Assembly: GCA_019187405.1 (NCBI GenBank)
Contig: JABAQZ010000016.1
Span: forward strand, 1 to 64,000
DNA length: 64,000 nucleotides
From: Ignavibacteria bacterium
GTDB lineage: Bacteria; Bacteroidota; Ignavibacteria; Tepidaquicellales; Tepidaquicellaceae
Reading direction: 5' to 3'
The first letter of the stretch is position 1. Each line of letters starts with the position of its first letter. A model generated the notes under the pieces. The model did no database searches. It saw only the letters and a list, made by a program, of their open reading frames with translations, and was not told the DNA's origin. A program made the position numbers and the translations under genes. Of this stretch, positions 24,822-37,731 are shown piece after piece.

Positions 24822-27791
24822 TCACTTTATTAGGACCATTCGTTTTACATCTTTAAAATTACCTGCTTCTATGCTGTAAAAGTAAACTCCGCTGGCATAG
24901 TTTAATCCGCTGAATTCTACTTCATATTTGCCGGCATTAAGTTCTTTGTTTATAAGCAGTTGCAACTCTCTGCCTAATGCATCATATACCTTTAATATAA
25001 CTTTGGATTTAATTGGCATCTCAAAGGTAATTTTAGAAGTCGGATTAAATGGATTGGGATAATTTTGTCCAAGACTATATTTTTCCGGAATATTCTGCGT
25101 AAGATTAGAAATTCCCACAGTTCCAAATGGACCTCCGGAAAAGCAAATAACCCTGCCGGTTCTGCTGCCACCGATGAATTCATTGCTAACATTTCCGTCA
25201 ATGCTTTTTAAATTTGAAACCTGTTCGACTGTATTGGTTGTAGGACTGCCGAAATTGTATGTAAAGATTGTCCTCCCGCTATCGCCAGTTAAAATGTACA
25301 GATTGCTGTTTTGCGTTCCGCATACTATTTCATTGACTCCATCACCCGTAATGTCGTTTAATTCATCAACTCCGTGAACATATCCGCCGTCAAGAAAATT
25401 GTTCCATATCTGAACTGCCGTTCTTGAATCTACTCTCGAGATAACATTAGGACCTGATGAGACAATATCGAGAAAACCATCTGCGCCTAAATCCTGCATG
25501 AGTCTTATGTTTCCGTCAATACTTGCTCCGATGTTTATGTTCCATATCATGCTGCCGTTGACGCCGGAAAGAGTCGTAATGGTTCCTCCGAATCCGATGA
25601 AAGCTGCAAGATCTGTTTGTCCGTCCGAGTTGATATCGGGAATTTCTTTAAGATTCCAAGCCGTGCTCGCAATAGGATATGTCCATATCTGATTACCTGA
25701 GTTATTAAATCCGTTAATTCCGTAAGGTCCTCCATTGCTGCTGAAATCAATTGCGCCTCCTGTTGATGTAGGAGCAGCGCTGTGAGTAAATTCGGCATTT
25801 TGAGTAACATTAAACAAAACATTTCCGTTAACTCCGTTTACACAAATTACGGCATGTCTTCCATTTCCTTCACCTTCTCCCGAAGCTGCAATAAGAACGT
25901 CCTTTTTACCGTCGCCGTTAAAGTCTTTTGTAACATTCACGCCGTTTACATCACCATCAGAAATAATCGTTGAATCTCCGTATGTCCAAAGCAATACACC
26001 TGTTCTTCCCGACAAAGCCCATACAAGCTCGTTATTACCTCCTGTACCTACAACGACATCCTTTATTCCATCACCGTTAATATCATCCATAATCTGCAAT
26101 CCATCTTCAAAGACAACCGATCCTGAAACATTACTGCTTCTTCTTGTATTGAATTTCCACAATATGTCATCACTTACTGAAGAATTGCCATTATAACATA
26201 TTGTCCAGTAATTGTCCGTAGATATCAATACATCGTTTACTCCATCAGCATTTACATCGGAAATTTCTTTCATCGATACGACTTTTGGATTGTCAGCAGC
26301 AGTATTTGGATTATCGGGAATATTTCCCTGCCACATAATATCTCCCAGCACAGCAGGATTATCAGTGCCTGTTCCATACAGGAATACTTTCAGCTGAGGA
26401 TTGTTCATTGCATTGGAATTAAATTTCACAGTATCGGTAAAATTTGCAGCAGAATTAGGATTAAACCAGATTCTAAATTGTATGGTTTTTTGAGTGTCAA
26501 TTACAACAGGAAAACTAATGCCTGTTGTATCGAGCCTGAATCTTTGTGTGTTAAATGAAACTGAACTTAAGGATAAAAGCTGACTGCCTAAATTTGAAAT
26601 ATTGATATATCCTCCGCTTAAAGAATTTTTCCTTCTTTGAGAATAGTTTAATTCTGCAGGAGCCGGCGATATATAACTTCCATTATAAATTCCTTTGCCG
26701 TATAAGTTAACAATCTTTTCCGGAACAACTCCATCATTGCTTAAGATTCTTAATTGTGAAGATGTATTTCCGTATGCTGACGGCAAAAATCTTACGTTAT
26801 AATTTTTTGACTGCGATGGATTGAGTGTATCGGGTACATTATTAGGTGTAATTGTATATTCAGGATTTGAAATGATCAAACCAGATATAATCAGTTTCGC
26901 ATTTCCCGTATTCGTAATTGATAATGTCCTGTCATTCGGGGTTCCGATAATTGTATTTCCGAAATCAATCTGATTAGCGCTGGTTGTAATCTGAGGATTT
27001 CCTGCGCCGGTCAGTTCATATTTATAAAGAGCTTTGAAAGTACCGGCAGTACCTCCAACTCTTTCGGCAATAAGCCACAAATATCTTCCGTCATAATGAA
27101 GTCCTCTTGGATTGCAGTTTCCGTCCGGGTCAGGTGTCGGGAATGAAAACAATGTATCGCCTGTAGATTTTCTGTATGCATACACTCTTTCAACATCAAT
27201 AAAAGGAGTAGTATGAAAATAATCATTTACATAAATAACTGTATCACCTTTTACCGTAATTCCTTGTACCTGTCTGCCCATCAGCGGGATTGTATCTGTT
27301 ATTAGTCTCGAAGTTAAATCAATTTTATATGCATAAGCATACGGATAGCTTGTAAAGTCAGGCGAATAAATAGAAAACCAAAGACTATTGCCGTCAATAG
27401 CAATATCACCTACTCCTCCGCTTGCGCCTCCGATTAATGATGGAAGCTGAATGCTGTCAATTCCGACACCGGCTGCATTAACTTTATACAACTTTGCTCC
27501 GGCTGTTCTGAAATCCTGTGCAATCCAGAAACCGCTGCCGTCCCATGCAAGTCCATGATTGAATGTAAAAGGTGTCGTCATACTGTCAAGTATTGTTCCG
27601 TTCAAACTTACTTTGTATAAACTTCCGTTATTATCAGTTCCAATTTTTAAAGTATCATTAAGCAGCGTGATACCCCAGAAGGAATTGTATTGAGAGTAAT
27701 TTGTAAACGGATAAGTTGCAATAATTGTCTGAGCAATTGCAGACGACATGCACATTAAAGATATTGTAATTAATAAAGTTAACTTTCTCAT
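24822..27791 (-). CDS. Choice-of-anchor D / FG-GAP repeat surface protein, T9SS cargo
   Basis: 989 residues with a signal peptide (about 1-20). The N-terminal 260 residues resemble a propeller (LKIGTDNNGSLYKVSLNG). Then come two HYDIN/ASPM-like Ig domains (choice-of-anchor D), seen as IDFGNTIIGTPNDRTLSIT and a second copy near AELNYSQRRKNS. Residues 480-890 carry FG-GAP/VCBS-type calcium repeats (DVNADGVNDVLI, DINGDGIKDVVVG, DFNGDGKKDVLIA, DINSDGQTDLAAF), an integrin-alpha-like propeller. The C-terminal T9SS domain reads QNYPNPFNPTSKITFEMP to KRMVLIK. The likely role is surface adhesion or display; no enzyme motif is visible. ATG start at 27791. Confidence 0.86.
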   Translation of the reverse strand: MRKLTLLITISLMCMSSAIAQTIIATYPFTNYSQYNSFWGITLLNDTLKIGTDNNGSLYKVSLNGTILDSMTTPFTFNHGLAWDGSGFWIAQDFRTAGAKLYKVNAAGVGIDSIQLPSLIGGASGGVGDIAIDGNSLWFSIYSPDFTSYPYAYAYKIDLTSRLITDTIPLMGRQVQGITVKGDTVIYVNDYFHTTPFIDVERVYAYRKSTGDTLFSFPTPDPDGNCNPRGLHYDGRYLWLIAERVGGTAGTFKALYKYELTGAGNPQITTSANQIDFGNTIIGTPNDRTLSITNTGNAKLIISGLIISNPEYTITPNNVPDTLNPSQSKNYNVRFLPSAYGNTSSQLRILSNDGVVPEKIVNLYGKGIYNGSYISPAPAELNYSQRRKNSLSGGYINISNLGSQLLSLSSVSFNTQRFRLDTTGISFPVVIDTQKTIQFRIWFNPNSAANFTDTVKFNSNAMNNPQLKVFLYGTGTDNPAVLGDIMWQGNIPDNPNTAADNPKVVSMKEISDVNADGVNDVLISTDNYWTICYNGNSSVSDDILWKFNTRRSSNVSGSVVFEDGLQIMDDINGDGIKDVVVGTGGNNELVWALSGRTGVLLWTYGDSTIISDGDVNGVNVTKDFNGDGKKDVLIAASGEGEGNGRHAVICVNGVNGNVLFNVTQNAEFTHSAAPTSTGGAIDFSSNGGPYGINGFNNSGNQIWTYPIASTAWNLKEIPDINSDGQTDLAAFIGFGGTITTLSGVNGSMIWNINIGASIDGNIRLMQDLGADGFLDIVSSGPNVISRVDSRTAVQIWNNFLDGGYVHGVDELNDITGDGVNEIVCGTQNSNLYILTGDSGRTIFTYNFGSPTTNTVEQVSNLKSIDGNVSNEFIGGSRTGRVICFSGGPFGTVGISNLTQNIPEKYSLGQNYPNPFNPTSKITFEMPIKSKVILKVYDALGRELQLLINKELNAGKYEVEFSGLNYASGVYFYSIEAGNFKDVKRMVLIK

Positions 27792-29790: not shown

Positions 29791-32667
29791 TTGGATCACT
29801 TCCCTACAGGCAATGTTACATTTCTTTTTACGGACATAGAAGGCAGCACAAGACTGGCTCAGAAGGATAACGATGCCTATCTCGATGCTCTTGCTCTTCA
29901 TCATGAGATTCTTTATGAAGTAATTGATTCAAATAAAGGCTTTGTTTTTAAAATCATCGGGGATTCTTTTTGCTGTGCATTTAACAGTTCTGAAGATGCC
30001 GTTAATGCAGCCGTAAAGACACAGATAAAATTGAGGAAAACAGAATGGGAAGGAATGGAAATTAAAGTGAGGATGGGAATTCATTCCGGCGAAGCGGAAT
30101 TTGTCAACGGTGATTATGTCGGATATGTTACTCTAAGCCGCTCTCAGAGGATAATGTCATCGGCTTACGGCGGACAGATACTTGTAACAGACGGAGTTTA
30201 CCACTCAGTAAAAGAAAATCCGGAAGTAAATGTAACATTCAAAGATTTTGGAAAAAGAAAACTTAAGGATATTATTCTGCCTGAACATATATATCAGGTT
30301 ATAGCTGAGGGAATTGAATCTGATTTCATGCCTTTAAAAAGTCTCGATGCACGACAAAACAATCTGCCTTCGATAATTACCAAATTCATAGGAAGACAAA
30401 AAGAACTTAACGAAATCAAAAATCTTTTTCCCGGAGTAAGAATGATTTCGTTGACAGGTGCCGGTGGTACAGGCAAAACACGTCTTGCTCTACAGCTTGC
30501 ATCCGAGATGGTTGATGAATACGAAAACGGAGTATGGATTATCGAATTGTCCGCCATTAATGATCCCGAATTAATCATAAAAGAAATTACAATTACTCTC
30601 GGATTAAAGGAAGATCCTACGACAGATATTTTTGAAACCTTGAAAAGTTTTCTGAAGTCAAAAAAAATATTGCTGCTGTTCGATAATACAGAGCATCTTC
30701 TGAATAAATGTGCTAAGATTGCAGAAGACCTCCTTTCATACTGCCCGAACCTTAAGATTATCTCTACAAGCAGAGAGTCGTTTAATATTCCGGGAGAAAC
30801 AATTTATAGAGTACCTCCCTTATCCATGCCCGAAAAAATAGAGAATGAAACTTATGAAACACTATGTCAATATGAATCTGTTAAATTTTTTTATGACAGA
30901 GCAGTTTCGGTTAATTCAAATTTTCAGCTTACAAAAGAAAATATTCACATAATTGCCGAGCTTTGCAAAAAACTTGATGGAATTCCTCTTGCAATCGAAC
31001 TTGCATCAAAAAGAATGAATGTACTTACTGCAGAAAAAATTCTCGAACGACTCTCAGACAGGTTTAAGCTTCTTACAAGCGGAAATACAACTGCACTTCC
31101 AAGACAGAAAACTCTGCGCGCAATGATAGACTGGAGCTATGATATGCTCAATCCAAACGAACAGCTGATGCTGCAACGGCTATCTATTTTCATGGGTGGC
31201 TGGACTCTTGAATCAGCCGAACAAATCTGTAGTGACGAGAATATTGATGAGTATGAAGTTCTGGATATGATGAATAGTCTCCTGGATAAATCGCTGATTA
31301 TATATAAGGAAACCAACGGTAAAGGAAGGTATGATATTCTCGAGTCAATCAAATACTACGGACTCGAAAAGCTTGGAGGAAAGAAAGAAGAGTTTCAGAA
31401 AAATCTGGACTTTTTCCTAATTGTATCTTCATTTATTGATCAGAAAAAAAAGGGAATGGGAGAACTTGACTGGCTTAAAATGATGGAAGATGAACTTGAC
31501 AACATCAGAATGAATATACAATGGGCAGAAGCAAACAATCCGGATAGCGCAGTTTTGCTTGTGATAAATACATTTGACTTCTGGTATAGCAAAGGATATT
31601 TCCAGGAAGGTTATGAAACTTCACTGAAATTTTTACACTCAGTTAATCCTGTAGATAAAAAATCCAAAGCAGAGTTGCTTTACTGTATAGCCCAGTTATG
31701 TTATCATCTTGGAAAATTTGACGAACTGGAAAAATATGCAACAGAGGGATTAAATCTTAGCAGGGAAATAGAATATAAAAAAGGTATCATTAAATGTCTG
31801 AATACGATTAGCCTGAAAGCTTATACTGAGCTGGATAACGAAAGCGCCGTGAAGTATAACGAGGAATCTTTGGCATTGAGCATTGAAATTAATGATGATA
31901 AAAGTAAAATAAATTCGCTTTACAATTTGTCTTTTCCCATAGGACATCTCGGAGACTATGATAGATCGATAGCGCTGAAAGAAGAAGCTCTTCAAATGGC
32001 AAGGAAACTGAATAATGAACATTTTATCGCACAGGTTCTGTTGAGCCTGAGCGTTTCGCAATCGGGCAGAAAAGGTGACATAAAAAAAGCTGCCGTACTT
32101 TCCGAAGAAAGTCTCATTCTATCCAGAAAACTTGAAGACCTTTATCTTATATCCATTAATCTTGTAAATCTTGCTGCGCTGAAATTGTATTATGAAGAAA
32201 AAAATTATGAAGAAGCGGAGTATCTATTGCATGATGCATATAACATATCTATAGATCACGGTTATAATATGAATTTATTTCCCATTAGGATTCATTTGGG
32301 ATTGATGTATGTCGAAACCGGAAAATTTTCTGAAGCAATTACCGTTTTTAATGAATATCTGAAAGAAAAAGATAAGCCCGGAGCAGAATTTTTTATGAAC
32401 AACCTCATAGCCGGCATCGGAAAAATTTGTTTTAAAAGCAATGAATACAAAGATGCAGTCAGACTATACGGATTGATTGATTTCATGTCAAGCAACAAAA
32501 AATATAAATCAGTAAATAAAAATCTGATACTCAGCGTAGAAGACAAAACAGTTCTTGTTAACTCGCTTGGAGAAGATGAATTTAATAAATACTGGAATGA
32601 AGGCAGAACAATGAATTTTGATGAAGCTTTAATTGAATCAATGAGTAAAATTAAAAATATGTATTAA
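29791..32667 (+). CDS. Class III nucleotide cyclase-STAND NTPase-TPR regulator (copy 2)
   Basis: 958 residues with the same three-part build as the protein at 4173. The cyclase domain (about 8-170) has the metal Asp pair D15 (FLFTDIEGST) and D58 (KIIGDSFCCAF), then YVGYVTLSRSQRIMSSAYGG and GKRKLKDIILPEHIYQV. The ATPase has Walker A GAGGTGKT (223-230), Walker B ILLLFDNTEHLL and GIPLAIELASKRM. The C-terminal half, from about 560, is TPR-like (LYCIAQLCYHLGKFDELE, SLYNLSFPIGHLGDYDRS). The TTG at 29791 starts directly at the family N-terminus HFPTGNVTFLFTD. No HTH domain is seen, so output probably runs through a cyclic nucleotide or protein contacts. It is upstream of the GND-repeat protein (138 bases) and might be co-expressed. 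Confidence 0.88.
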   Translation: MDHFPTGNVTFLFTDIEGSTRLAQKDNDAYLDALALHHEILYEVIDSNKGFVFKIIGDSFCCAFNSSEDAVNAAVKTQIKLRKTEWEGMEIKVRMGIHSGEAEFVNGDYVGYVTLSRSQRIMSSAYGGQILVTDGVYHSVKENPEVNVTFKDFGKRKLKDIILPEHIYQVIAEGIESDFMPLKSLDARQNNLPSIITKFIGRQKELNEIKNLFPGVRMISLTGAGGTGKTRLALQLASEMVDEYENGVWIIELSAINDPELIIKEITITLGLKEDPTTDIFETLKSFLKSKKILLLFDNTEHLLNKCAKIAEDLLSYCPNLKIISTSRESFNIPGETIYRVPPLSMPEKIENETYETLCQYESVKFFYDRAVSVNSNFQLTKENIHIIAELCKKLDGIPLAIELASKRMNVLTAEKILERLSDRFKLLTSGNTTALPRQKTLRAMIDWSYDMLNPNEQLMLQRLSIFMGGWTLESAEQICSDENIDEYEVLDMMNSLLDKSLIIYKETNGKGRYDILESIKYYGLEKLGGKKEEFQKNLDFFLIVSSFIDQKKKGMGELDWLKMMEDELDNIRMNIQWAEANNPDSAVLLVINTFDFWYSKGYFQEGYETSLKFLHSVNPVDKKSKAELLYCIAQLCYHLGKFDELEKYATEGLNLSREIEYKKGIIKCLNTISLKAYTELDNESAVKYNEESLALSIEINDDKSKINSLYNLSFPIGHLGDYDRSIALKEEALQMARKLNNEHFIAQVLLSLSVSQSGRKGDIKKAAVLSEESLILSRKLEDLYLISINLVNLAALKLYYEEKNYEEAEYLLHDAYNISIDHGYNMNLFPIRIHLGLMYVETGKFSEAITVFNEYLKEKDKPGAEFFMNNLIAGIGKICFKSNEYKDAVRLYGLIDFMSSNKKYKSVNKNLILSVEDKTVLVNSLGEDEFNKYWNEGRTMNFDEALIESMSKIKNMY

Positions 32668-32805: not shown

Positions 32806-35640
32806 TTGAAATTTAAATTTTTACATTTGAAAATCTTAAGCTTTTTATTTTTTTTTCTGCTCGTTCAATCCACAACAACTTTTTCTCAGATGAATGAAGA
32901 TTCAGTGATTAATCTTGCATTAGCTTTCAGAGGACTGACAAAAGATGACATTACAATTCCGGTTAATTTTGATAAGGAAAAATCTCCGAGAAACGATTCA
33001 AAATTATTTTTACCGGTTGTAAAAAAATTAATGACCGCTCCAATGAATTATGAAAAATTTACGGAAGATATTTCGATGCTGTCCTTCAGGAACGAAGAGG
33101 AGATTATAAAGCATTTTTACGATCTTCTTGATGTCAGATTCAATCCTGAAAGTTATATCAGTCAGAATGAAAAAATTACAGGAAATGATCTTGTAAAGAT
33201 CTGCAAGAGATTTAAAAAATTTAACGATACTCTCGCCCGTATTTTTTCGAAAGAGGAAAAAGATTTTCTCACAAAAAATATATTGTCTTTGGTAATAAAC
33301 ACAGCCGAATCTGACGAAAGTAATATGGATATTTTTAAATTCAATAAATCAAGAGATTCAGGCAATGCGGTATCAAAAAGAACTTTGGATTTGCTGAGCA
33401 GACTTAATATGCAATTGGTTATGAAAAATTCACTGGATGCTTTTGTTTCCTGTCTGAAAGTTTATGAGAATGTAAAGTCTTCGGGGTATATTGAAAATTC
33501 AGTCAGCGAAAATCCGGAATATGGAAGCAATGAATTTATTTATTATTATGAAAAAGAAGGGATAAGAATAGCTATCGGAGGATATGAAAAGAATGTATAT
33601 GAGGGTTATTATGATTTCATTTTGGATTTCGGAGGAGATGATGTTTACAATGTTACAGCATCACAAAGCACATCGGTAAGCGGTTTAACCTGCATAATGG
33701 ATCTTTCCGGAAATGATTATTATTATACTGATACAGATTTTACATTGGCAGGCAGTATGTTCGGAGCTGGTATGATATTTGACAAAAGCGGTGAAGACGT
33801 TTACAAAGGAAAAAACGGTTCACTCGGATCTTCAGTTGTTGGGCTCGGATTTCTTTGTGATGAAGACGGTAATGACATTTATAATGCAGGAATTTTTTCT
33901 CAGGCAGCGGCATCTTTTGGAATCGGAATATTGTTAGACAAAAACGGAAATGATTTTTACATATCGAATTCATACTCACAGGGTTTTGGCATGACGCAGG
34001 GAGCCGGCGCTATAATTGATCTGAAAGGAAATGATTCGTATCTGTGCGATACCCGTGCGCTTGACATTGGCAGGTATGAAGATCATTTCATATCCATGTG
34101 TCAGGGATTCGGTTTTGGAATGAGACCTTATTATGCGGGAGGAATCGGAATTATATTAGAAGGCGAAGGAAATGATTTTTACAGTTCTGATATTTATGGA
34201 CAAGGAAGCGCATACTGGTACGGTATCGGCTGCATTTCCGATAATTCGGGAAATGATAAGTATAATTCATATCAATACTCCCAAGGAGCAGGGATCCATC
34301 TTGCTGTCGGAATTCTTAAAGACAAAACAGGATGGGATTATTATACATCAAACGGAGTTTCGCAAGGCTGCGGTCATGATTTTGGCATTGGCATTCTTGA
34401 AGATATCAGAGGCAATGACAATTTCTCAGCTTATTCACTGTCACAAGGAGCGGGAAATGCCAACGGCATCGGAATATTGTTTGACAGAAACGGAAGCGAC
34501 GGTTATTTAAATAAAGAGCCAGGGAATTCAAGAGGATATGGAAATCCAAGAAGAGATTTCGGAAGCTTAGGTTTATTCATAGATTTTTCCGGAACTGATT
34601 ATTATTCCGAACCCGGAAATGACAGTGTTATAGCCAACACTTCTTATTGGGGAATGATGATGGATTTTCATCTTATGGATATTTCTAATAATGAAATATC
34701 AAAGACATTTAAAATTCCGGTTGATTCATCGAGAGATTATACCAAAGAAGAGTTTTTTGTAATGGCTAAGACGATTGAACCAAGGTTTTCACTATGGCAG
34801 GAATATGGTTTTAGAAAACTCGTGAATGACAGCAATAAAACGGCTGATTTCATTTTAAACTTCCTCGATACTGACGATCACCGAGAAGCACTTGTACTAA
34901 GAAATCTTGCTTTTAAAATAGGATATACTTTGGGAAAATTGTTTTCAGAAAAGCTTAAGTTTCATCTGGTTAATATGCATCTCAGACAGGAATTCAACGA
35001 AAACCAGATTTCCTACATCTGTTACTTATTCGGCGAAACGGGAAATCCCGAAGGCAGAGAAGAGCTTTTGCAGCTCACGTATGATGACAATATCAAAATT
35101 AAAACTTCATCAGTAAATGCATTGGGAAAGATTAAATTAACAGAAGCTGATCGAGAATTTAAGGAAAGAGTATCATCGAGACTGCGTGAACTTGCTTTTT
35201 CGGATTCTGAAAATGAATTATTAAATAAAGATATTTCTTTTGCTTTTAAAAATTACATTTCAAAAGAAAACATTCCGGCATTAATTCATTTACTGTCAAA
35301 CGGATATTTTGGAGCAAGATTTAATGCAGCCGAAAGTCTAAAGAAGTACGGAAATGATTATGCCGATTTTGCTGATAATATTCTTGATGATAATATTTTA
35401 TTTGAAATGCCGTTTATCATTTCATTTGCGGAATCCTTTAAAGAGTTACCTGAATTACAATTCAAAAAATTATTTGAGCAAATTTATGAAATGGCAAGAA
35501 ATGGTAATGATCCATTGAAATTAAAACTGATTGAAATACTCCAGCATAAACAATCTCAATCCGAAGATTCCGGATTCAAAGAATGGAGTAAAACTTATTT
35601 GCGCACGTTGGAAGTTACAGGTTTCAAAAAAGTAAAATAA
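32806..35640 (+). CDS. Secreted protein with about 12 G-N-D-x-Y repeats and C-terminal HEAT-like repeats
   Basis: 944 residues; I do not recognise a named family. A signal peptide covers about 1-28 (LSFLFFFLLVQSTTTFSQ). Residues 29-250 are helical with no motif I can name. From about 268 to 605 there are some 12 repeats of about 26-27 residues of the form GIGILxDxxGNDxYxxxxYSQGxG (for example ILLDKNGNDFYISNSYSQG, CISDNSGNDKYNSYQYSQG); one repeat is extended to 47 residues. The regular Gly, Asp and aromatic spacing suggests a beta-solenoid, perhaps with calcium-type Asp loops. The remainder is alpha-helical with HEAT-like units (IKTSSVNALGKIKL, FNAAESLKKYGNDY). There is no T9SS or dockerin tail, unlike most secreted proteins here. 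The start is a TTG at 32806. Confidence 0.8.
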   Translation: MKFKFLHLKILSFLFFFLLVQSTTTFSQMNEDSVINLALAFRGLTKDDITIPVNFDKEKSPRNDSKLFLPVVKKLMTAPMNYEKFTEDISMLSFRNEEEIIKHFYDLLDVRFNPESYISQNEKITGNDLVKICKRFKKFNDTLARIFSKEEKDFLTKNILSLVINTAESDESNMDIFKFNKSRDSGNAVSKRTLDLLSRLNMQLVMKNSLDAFVSCLKVYENVKSSGYIENSVSENPEYGSNEFIYYYEKEGIRIAIGGYEKNVYEGYYDFILDFGGDDVYNVTASQSTSVSGLTCIMDLSGNDYYYTDTDFTLAGSMFGAGMIFDKSGEDVYKGKNGSLGSSVVGLGFLCDEDGNDIYNAGIFSQAAASFGIGILLDKNGNDFYISNSYSQGFGMTQGAGAIIDLKGNDSYLCDTRALDIGRYEDHFISMCQGFGFGMRPYYAGGIGIILEGEGNDFYSSDIYGQGSAYWYGIGCISDNSGNDKYNSYQYSQGAGIHLAVGILKDKTGWDYYTSNGVSQGCGHDFGIGILEDIRGNDNFSAYSLSQGAGNANGIGILFDRNGSDGYLNKEPGNSRGYGNPRRDFGSLGLFIDFSGTDYYSEPGNDSVIANTSYWGMMMDFHLMDISNNEISKTFKIPVDSSRDYTKEEFFVMAKTIEPRFSLWQEYGFRKLVNDSNKTADFILNFLDTDDHREALVLRNLAFKIGYTLGKLFSEKLKFHLVNMHLRQEFNENQISYICYLFGETGNPEGREELLQLTYDDNIKIKTSSVNALGKIKLTEADREFKERVSSRLRELAFSDSENELLNKDISFAFKNYISKENIPALIHLLSNGYFGARFNAAESLKKYGNDYADFADNILDDNILFEMPFIISFAESFKELPELQFKKLFEQIYEMARNGNDPLKLKLIEILQHKQSQSEDSGFKEWSKTYLRTLEVTGFKKVK

Positions 35641-36000: not shown

Positions 36001-37731
36001 ATGAAAACGAAAATTTTCTCATTTGTTTTAGCAGTACTGTTCATTTCCTCTATGAATGTAACTGCTCAAGATGTAAACTCCTCCAATTATGATGCTTGGA
36101 AGAGAAATCAGGTTTTTGTACCTGATGCTAATGTTAACAAAGTACCTGTTGCCCAGTACAACAGCATTCCTTTTTTGTCAAATGGTCAGACGCCTGACAG
36201 ACCTACATGTCTGTTTGAGCCTTTTGATTCTGCTACGTGGACTATTGCTATGGCAAGAAATGATGACGGATCATCTGCAAGTATAGCTCTTCCGTTTACA
36301 TTTAATTTGTATGGTGATCTTTATACTTCCGTTTACATTAACAATAATGGAAATATAACTTTTACGAGTCCATATAGTACATTTACTCCATTTGCATTCC
36401 CGAGTTCACCACTTGCAATTGTAGCTCCATTCTTTGCAGATGTTGATACAAGAAATACTCTGAGTGGATTAGTTTACTATAAAATGGAATCAAACAGAAT
36501 GACTATTACCTGGGACAGCGTAGGTTATTATAATGCCCATGTAGATAAAAGAAATACATTCCAGCTTATTATTTCCGACGGATCCGATCCTTACATAGGA
36601 ATCGGAAATAATGTCTGCTTCAGTTACGGTGACATGAACTGGACAACCGGTGATGCTTCACTCGGTATCGGCGGATTCGGTCCTCCATCAACTGCAGCAA
36701 CGCTTGGAGTAAACAAAGGCGACGGAACAACATTTGCCACTTTGGGAAGATTTTGCCGAGACAATTCAAATTATTACGGACCCGGAGCAGATACAAACGG
36801 AGTTCATTATCTTGACTGCAGAGGCTATTGCTTTAATGCCAGTAATGCAGGAAATATCTGTCCAGTACCATCGGGTTTCCCCGGAACTGCTCCTGTTAAT
36901 GTAACTTGCGGCACAACTTATGTAGGCCATTATTCAATGAGCGCGCCAGAAGCAACTCAATTAGTTTCAGGAAGCGTATCAGGAGTACCGCCTAATATGA
37001 CGGTTAACATTACCAATGGTTTGACATGTACTTTTGATGTTACTTACGCTCCAACAGCGGGTGATGTTGGCGTTCATATTGTATGCTTCCAGGGAGTAGA
37101 TAATTTCACTCCTCCTTGCACAACTACAGTATGTGTTACATACATAGTTGATTGTCCGGGACCTGTCGAGCTTACTTCATTTACATCAACGGTAACAAAC
37201 AGAGATGTCACACTCAACTGGTCAACGGCAACAGAAACAAATAACTCCGGCTTTGACATAGAAAGATCCGGCGGAAACAATGAATGGACAAAAGTTGGAT
37301 TTGTAACCGGACATGGTACTGTTACAGTTCCGCTGTCATATTCATTTACCGACAGAGGTCTTGCTTCAGGCGTATATAATTACAGACTGAAACAAATCGA
37401 CTTCAACGGTAACTTCGAATATTTCAACCTCAGTAACGAAGTGATTATCGGAACGCCAACTACATTCAGCCTGAAACAGAATTATCCGAATCCGTTCAAT
37501 CCATCAACAAAGATTGAATATGCAATTCCATTCGATGGAAAGGTTAGTCTGTCAATATTTGACATGTCAGGAAAAGAGATTTCAAAATTGGTTAACGGCA
37601 CACAAACTGCAGGTTACTATTCAGTCAACTTTGACGGAACAAATCTTGCCAGCGGTGTTTATTATTACAGGATTGAAGTATCGGGACAAAACAACTTTGT
37701 CGATACGAGAAAGATGCTGTTAGTAAAATAA
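36001..37731 (+). CDS. Secreted protein with nidogen-like and Fn3-like domains, T9SS cargo
   Basis: 576 residues with a signal peptide to about residue 22 (LAVLFISSMNVTAQ). Residues 85-235 match the nidogen extracellular (NIDO) pattern: YTSVYINNNGNITF, LAIVAPFFADVDTRN, VYYKM, MTITWDSVGYYN and NTFQLIISDG. Residues 295-380 are a Cys-containing Ig-like domain. The Fn3-like domain LNWSTATETNNSGFDIER to NYRLKQIDFNGNFEYF follows, then the T9SS tail QNYPNPFNPSTKIEYAIP, IFDMSGKEI, SGVYYYRIEV and RKMLLVK. NIDO domains occur in matrix and adhesion proteins, so a cell-surface adhesin is likely. ATG start at 36001, monocistronic, with its own terminator. Confidence 0.86.
   Translation: MKTKIFSFVLAVLFISSMNVTAQDVNSSNYDAWKRNQVFVPDANVNKVPVAQYNSIPFLSNGQTPDRPTCLFEPFDSATWTIAMARNDDGSSASIALPFTFNLYGDLYTSVYINNNGNITFTSPYSTFTPFAFPSSPLAIVAPFFADVDTRNTLSGLVYYKMESNRMTITWDSVGYYNAHVDKRNTFQLIISDGSDPYIGIGNNVCFSYGDMNWTTGDASLGIGGFGPPSTAATLGVNKGDGTTFATLGRFCRDNSNYYGPGADTNGVHYLDCRGYCFNASNAGNICPVPSGFPGTAPVNVTCGTTYVGHYSMSAPEATQLVSGSVSGVPPNMTVNITNGLTCTFDVTYAPTAGDVGVHIVCFQGVDNFTPPCTTTVCVTYIVDCPGPVELTSFTSTVTNRDVTLNWSTATETNNSGFDIERSGGNNEWTKVGFVTGHGTVTVPLSYSFTDRGLASGVYNYRLKQIDFNGNFEYFNLSNEVIIGTPTTFSLKQNYPNPFNPSTKIEYAIPFDGKVSLSIFDMSGKEISKLVNGTQTAGYYSVNFDGTNLASGVYYYRIEVSGQNNFVDTRKMLLVK

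Follow-up and report, generated by a model that had tools for sequence, protein, structure and literature searches.

A predicted exported beta-solenoid protein family with a putative active or binding site in Ignavibacteria and beyond

Results and Discussion

Architecture of the solenoid protein and its locus

The window, by which we mean the whole 64,000-nucleotide stretch that was analyzed (contig JABAQZ010000016.1, positions 1 to 64,000), contains a gene for a large protein with a repetitive central domain. We refer to it as the solenoid protein. Its main features are as follows.

32806..35640, + strand: whole gene, 944 aa, confirmed ORF with a TTG start
32806..32889, + strand: predicted Sec signal peptide, residues 1-28, a hydrophobic core followed by ...TFSQ, without a lipobox Cys
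32893..33534, + strand: helical N-terminal region, residues ~30-243, from AF2 helices and profile search
33559..34671, + strand: predicted beta-solenoid domain, residues 252-622, with 12 G-x-D-x-Y turns, from motif count, alignment, and AF2
34723..35622, + strand: C-terminal HEAT/ARM-like helical repeats, residues ~640-939

An earlier, sequence-only reading of this ORF proposed that its product is secreted, and the hydrophobic N-terminus, which is typical of a Sec signal peptide, agrees with that proposal. Nearly all aligned relatives also begin with a signal-peptide-like stretch, and the predicted signal peptide points to export via the Sec pathway. The HEAT-like helical repeats proposed in the same reading were recovered in the C-terminal region, which is helical in the AF2 model of the protein and gives a weak HEAT_2 match (residues 647-938; E 9.5e-6, just short of the curated cut-off). 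In profile searches, the N-terminal region was recognizable in 7 distant homologues and the C-terminal region in 18. Por_Secre_tail, CHU_C, and dockerin models did not match the solenoid protein in a scan that found T9SS tails in neighboring genes, in keeping with the earlier view that it lacks a T9SS or dockerin tail. Among the L002-L027 proteins, many orthologues have a short basic stretch (LKVK/LKVR/LKIN) at the C-terminus, without a known domain.

Three nearby genes have recognizable domains.

24825..27791, - strand: 989-aa protein with HYDIN-like Ig, FG-GAP/PQQ-like, and T9SS-tail domains
29791..32667, + strand: just upstream, adenylate/guanylate cyclase domain with NB-ARC and TPR repeats (STAND-type regulator)
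36001..37731, + strand: just downstream, Nidogen-like (NIDO) domain with a T9SS sorting tail

In six related loci, a homologue of the HYDIN-Ig/FG-GAP/T9SS-tail gene is found in the vicinity of the solenoid gene, and in several of them the two are directly divergent. In three relatives (L082:9802-10470, L086:9499-10185, and L087:9091-9732), the gene immediately downstream of the solenoid gene is LppM-like and encodes ~220 aa; the window has no such gene at this place. In four genomes of the same class (L089-L092), an NFACT-domain gene adjoins the solenoid gene, with RibD also near in three of them. A Radical SAM gene is common to four loci, and it is close to the solenoid gene in the Planctomycetota-side loci only. 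On the whole, the neighbors are housekeeping or unrelated genes, and they provided no substrate or functional lead.

A single domain with a fixed number of coils

The G-x-D-x-[FYW] motif occurs 12 times in the solenoid protein, at residues 277, 302, 329, 355, 381, 408, 455, 482, 509, 536, 563, and 596; across 5000 shuffles of the same sequence, the mean count was 0.83 and the highest was 5. The longest run of motifs at a spacing of 25-27 was 6, against 2 in the shuffles. The count of about 12 G-N-D-x-Y repeats given by the sequence-only reading therefore stands, and its repeat length of about 26-27 residues is right for most spacings, the exceptions being two long ones (47 residues from 408 to 455 and 33 from 563 to 596). 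Its limits for the repeat region, residues 268-605, were too narrow, as the domain spans residues ~252-622. The full turn reads D-x-x-G-x-D-x-Y and occurs once per 26-27-residue coil, which would place two Asp columns along one edge of the stack. Within the turn, N is common; the residue preceding the Gly is variable, the one following it is N, D, or others, and there is no Thr ladder. The recurrent YSQG element noted earlier was also recovered, with its Gln repeating at seven positions (Q366, Q392, Q433, Q466, Q493, Q520, and Q547). This Gln is seen in most of the coils; it more likely forms a structural ladder.

We aligned the domain from 95 homologues, which are 31-70% identical to the window protein. 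All 12 turns are present across the set, with four rows lacking the last turn only, and the median domain length is 369 aa. At each of the 12 turns, no fewer than 89 of the 95 rows retain the Gly and Asp, and no fewer than 80 retain the second Asp. Thus, the repeats form a single domain with a fixed coil number, not an open-ended scaffold. In distant homologues, this domain is placed after PDZ or HEAT domains, twice together with PPIase domains, and in others it follows a helical-looking N-terminal region alone. Homologues also match NCBIfam protease models, but many of these are cross-matches to PDZ or HEAT and no evidence of proteolysis.

An unnamed family with a predicted RTX-like fold

No Pfam or NCBIfam model covers the solenoid domain, a search of PDB sequences returned chance matches only, and we found no description of its repeat in the literature. 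The sequence-only reading, which could not match the protein to a described family, is borne out at this level, as no sequence profile assigns the domain. That reading also named hemolysin-type and pentapeptide repeats as well-described families to which a profile search might assign it. Pfam HemolysinCabind gave no match to the solenoid protein (E up to 1), to the isolated domain (E up to 10), or to any of 79 homologues scanned (E up to 0.001). Pentapeptide profiles matched neither the protein nor the isolated domain, whose period is 26-27 residues, not five. The relation that does emerge is one of fold, with the Ca2+-dependent RTX-like solenoid of MpAFP from Marinomonas primoryensis as the nearest structural neighbor of the domain.

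Using the 95 natural homologues, AF2 predicted a beta-solenoid with high confidence (pLDDT 96.6, pTM 0.94), in agreement with the Asp-lined turns proposed earlier. With a shallow 27-row alignment, confidence was low in several loops that the 95-row model resolves confidently. AF2 is described as capable of yielding confident but unrealistic solenoids from perfect repeats (PMC11795689); that risk is lowered here, though not removed, because the repeats have diverged and the alignment is natural.

In VIA-align, the best match to the domain was 3p4g, which is region IV of the Marinomonas protein (MpAFP/MpIBP), with Z 23.0 and an rmsd of 2.5 over 258 residues. The next rows stayed at or below the 17.3 of PL6 lyases, and lower rows included S-layer RsaA and RTX fragments. 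Identity to 3p4g was 20% in the structure alignment, and 3p4g was absent from profile matches at E up to 10. VIA-align alone separated this match; Foldseek with the domain found nothing significant in PDB (best E 0.56) or BFVD, and with the full-length model it found ARM/HEAT-type repeats only. The solenoid domain thus lies outside the RTX family by profile and repeat length, yet it shares the predicted fold of a one-sided RTX-like solenoid. It represents an unnamed and widespread family whose turn type has a precedent in MpAFP.

Both MpAFP region IV and the solenoid domain are long, continuous beta-solenoids, the latter by prediction, with one G-N-D-type turn per coil. They differ in coil length (27 residues here and 19 there), in the shorter Asp-rich turn here, and in the export signal, which is of Sec type here and for type I secretion there. 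The solenoid domain also has an invariant Arg/His/Asp patch and an insertion in coil 7, and it lacks the Thr/Asx ice face. An ice-binding role like that of MpAFP would draw on the similarity to 3p4g and on the frequent N in the turn. However, the ice face of MpAFP is a regular Thr/Asx array (PMC3492233), which would be hard to reconcile with a domain without a Thr ladder, and we give this role almost no credence.

The likeness to RTX (hemolysin-type) nonapeptide repeats consists of a stacked Asp column and of a G-x-D turn with a large hydrophobic or aromatic residue after it. The solenoid domain does not follow the nine-residue GGxGxDxUx pattern with two repeats per coil: its coils are 26-27 residues long, against 18 in RTX, and each has a single such turn without paired Gly. 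No C-terminal T1SS region was recognized in the protein. PL6 alginate lyases and chondroitinase B (7o84, 5z9t, and 7o78) are parallel beta-helices of similar length (Z 14-17), but with 8-10% identity, an rmsd of 4-5 A, and no sequence match. In PL6 enzymes, the active site is located on the middle coils. Another recently described bacterial beta-solenoid, the knotted solenoids of Brevundimonas, resembles the domain in having conserved residues that open each coil; those proteins are placed nearest to pentapeptide repeats (PMC13123833), and we found no sequence link between them and the solenoid domain.

Probable stabilization by calcium

The Asp columns of RTX proteins are spaced 4.8 A apart and are unstable without Ca2+ (PMC6891781). 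MpAFP region IV has 19-residue coils with XGTGND turns and binds Ca2+ on one side only (PMC6891781); it is a Ca2+-bound right-handed beta-helix that needs millimolar Ca2+ (PMC3492233). The two conserved Asp columns of the solenoid domain are compatible with Ca2+ between stacked turns, and by analogy with the RTX columns the domain is probably Ca2+-stabilized. Its turn is one residue shorter from Asp to Gly than in the MpAFP peptide IDAGTGNDEIYIK quoted in PMC3492233, and it lacks the paired Gly of RTX, so calcium, if bound, need not bind as it does in MpAFP or RTX.

A conserved patch beside the coil-7 insertion

The longer of the two irregular spacings coincides with an insertion, which is followed by a small set of conserved residues.

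34042..34101, + strand: coil-7 insertion, ~20 residues (~413-432), in 95/95 homologues, with a spacing of 42-64 vs 26-27
34123..34125, + strand: R440, identical in 95/95
34213..34218, + strand: Y470 (93/95) and W471 (aromatic in 95/95)
34297..34299, + strand: H498, identical in 95/95
34375..34380, + strand: H524 (H or W in 90/95) and D525 (95/95)

Beyond the turn framework and glycines, only R440, H498, and D525 are invariant in all 95 homologues. Near-invariant positions are Q433 and Y470 (93/95 each), Q466 and Y491 (92/95 each), and Q392, also in the 90-93/95 range. R440, Q433, Q466, Y470, Y491, H498, and D525 all fall within coils 7-10, and the positions equivalent to the invariant residues in other coils are not invariant. 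W471, H498, and D525 are each the 12th residue of their coils (8, 9, and 10, respectively) and should therefore stack. From the same coil register, R440 in the coil-7 loop would lie at the same corner. The most plausible reading of this patch, which occupies 4 of 12 coils next to an invariant insertion, is a putative active or binding site. A second candidate for a core site, RYxDH within the insertion (residues 423-427), looks catalytic within the order; it is kept in only 33-41 of the 95 homologues and was set aside.

The domain might instead be a purely structural or adhesive Ca2+-stabilized spacer of the RTX adhesin or S-layer type, in which the invariant residues merely stabilize the coil-7 insertion. 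Such a role fits its nearest folds, which are a segment of an ice-binding adhesin and, at lower rank, S-layer RsaA and RTX fragments. Repeats in spacers usually differ in copy number, however, and here the number is the same in the 95 homologues; a spacer would also not be expected to keep a constant R/H/D set confined to 3-4 of its 12 coils, and we regard this role as improbable. A more serious contender, though one we hold at below even probability, is a noncatalytic binding module (lectin-like or peptide-binding) whose patch recognizes an envelope glycan or protein end, with HEAT or PDZ as a scaffold. PDZ and HEAT are themselves interaction modules, a patch of aromatic residues with Arg, His, and Asp also fits ligand binding, and no known catalytic family was matched. 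Against this, three residues identical in 95/95 sequences at 31-70% identity are under stricter constraint than many binding sites, although a binding site may still be kept this tightly.

Distribution and phylogeny

The solenoid protein was found in 37 of 59 genomes among the window's relatives, nearly always as a single match, and its orthologues are full-length within the window's family and order. Most sampled genomes of the window's order carry the domain, and it is also present in the wider class. The domain profile matched 23 of 296 genomes across the window's phylum and 101 of 246 (about 40%) in the phylum of the Phycisphaerales, where several genomes had multiple matches, up to 7 each. 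The genome searches covered these two phyla. No relatives were present in the viral contigs, phages, or plasmids searched. In the 95-sequence tree, the 15 sequences from the family and order form one clade (support 100/99), whose neighbor is a clade of 17 sequences from the same class. A few from that class are placed among planctomycete ones, which points to transfer or old paralogy outside the order. The wide spread, the fixed coil number, the constant coil-7 insertion, and the invariant Arg/His/Asp patch in coils 7-10 are new relative to the sequence-only reading.

Proposed function

Taken at about an even chance, our general explanation is that this is an exported RTX-like solenoid that is probably stabilized by Ca2+, bears a single conserved site for catalysis or ligand binding, and frequently occurs in fusion with PDZ or HEAT domains. 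The protein would leave the cytoplasm via the Sec pathway, with its central domain forming a parallel beta-solenoid of 12 turns. The Marinomonas antifreeze adhesin provides the model for one edge of the stack, where the Asp columns most likely coordinate a row of Ca2+ ions; the domain would then fold outside the cytoplasm only. Away from this edge, R440 (coil 7), Y470/W471 (coil 8), H498 (coil 9), and D525 (coil 10) would make up a catalytic or ligand-binding site, as in solenoid enzymes whose middle coils bear the active site on one face, and the ~20-residue coil-7 insertion next to it could serve as a lid. The flanks (HEAT here, PDZ or HEAT in relatives) would carry the domain to an envelope protein partner or a protein-bound substrate.

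A more specific version, which we offer tentatively and rather doubt, is that the family comprises undescribed exported enzymes: the RTX-like Ca2+ solenoid would itself be catalytic, with an Arg-Tyr-His-Asp site under the coil-7 lid and PDZ/HEAT delivery to envelope proteins.

A domain of fixed length that is found in ~40% of the 246 genomes from the Phycisphaerales phylum is without a Pfam or NCBIfam family model. The three invariant residues make the active- or binding-site reading directly testable. RTX-like solenoids are known for Ca2+-driven folding, secretion, and ice binding, and a conserved R/H/D site of its own would represent a new use of the fold.
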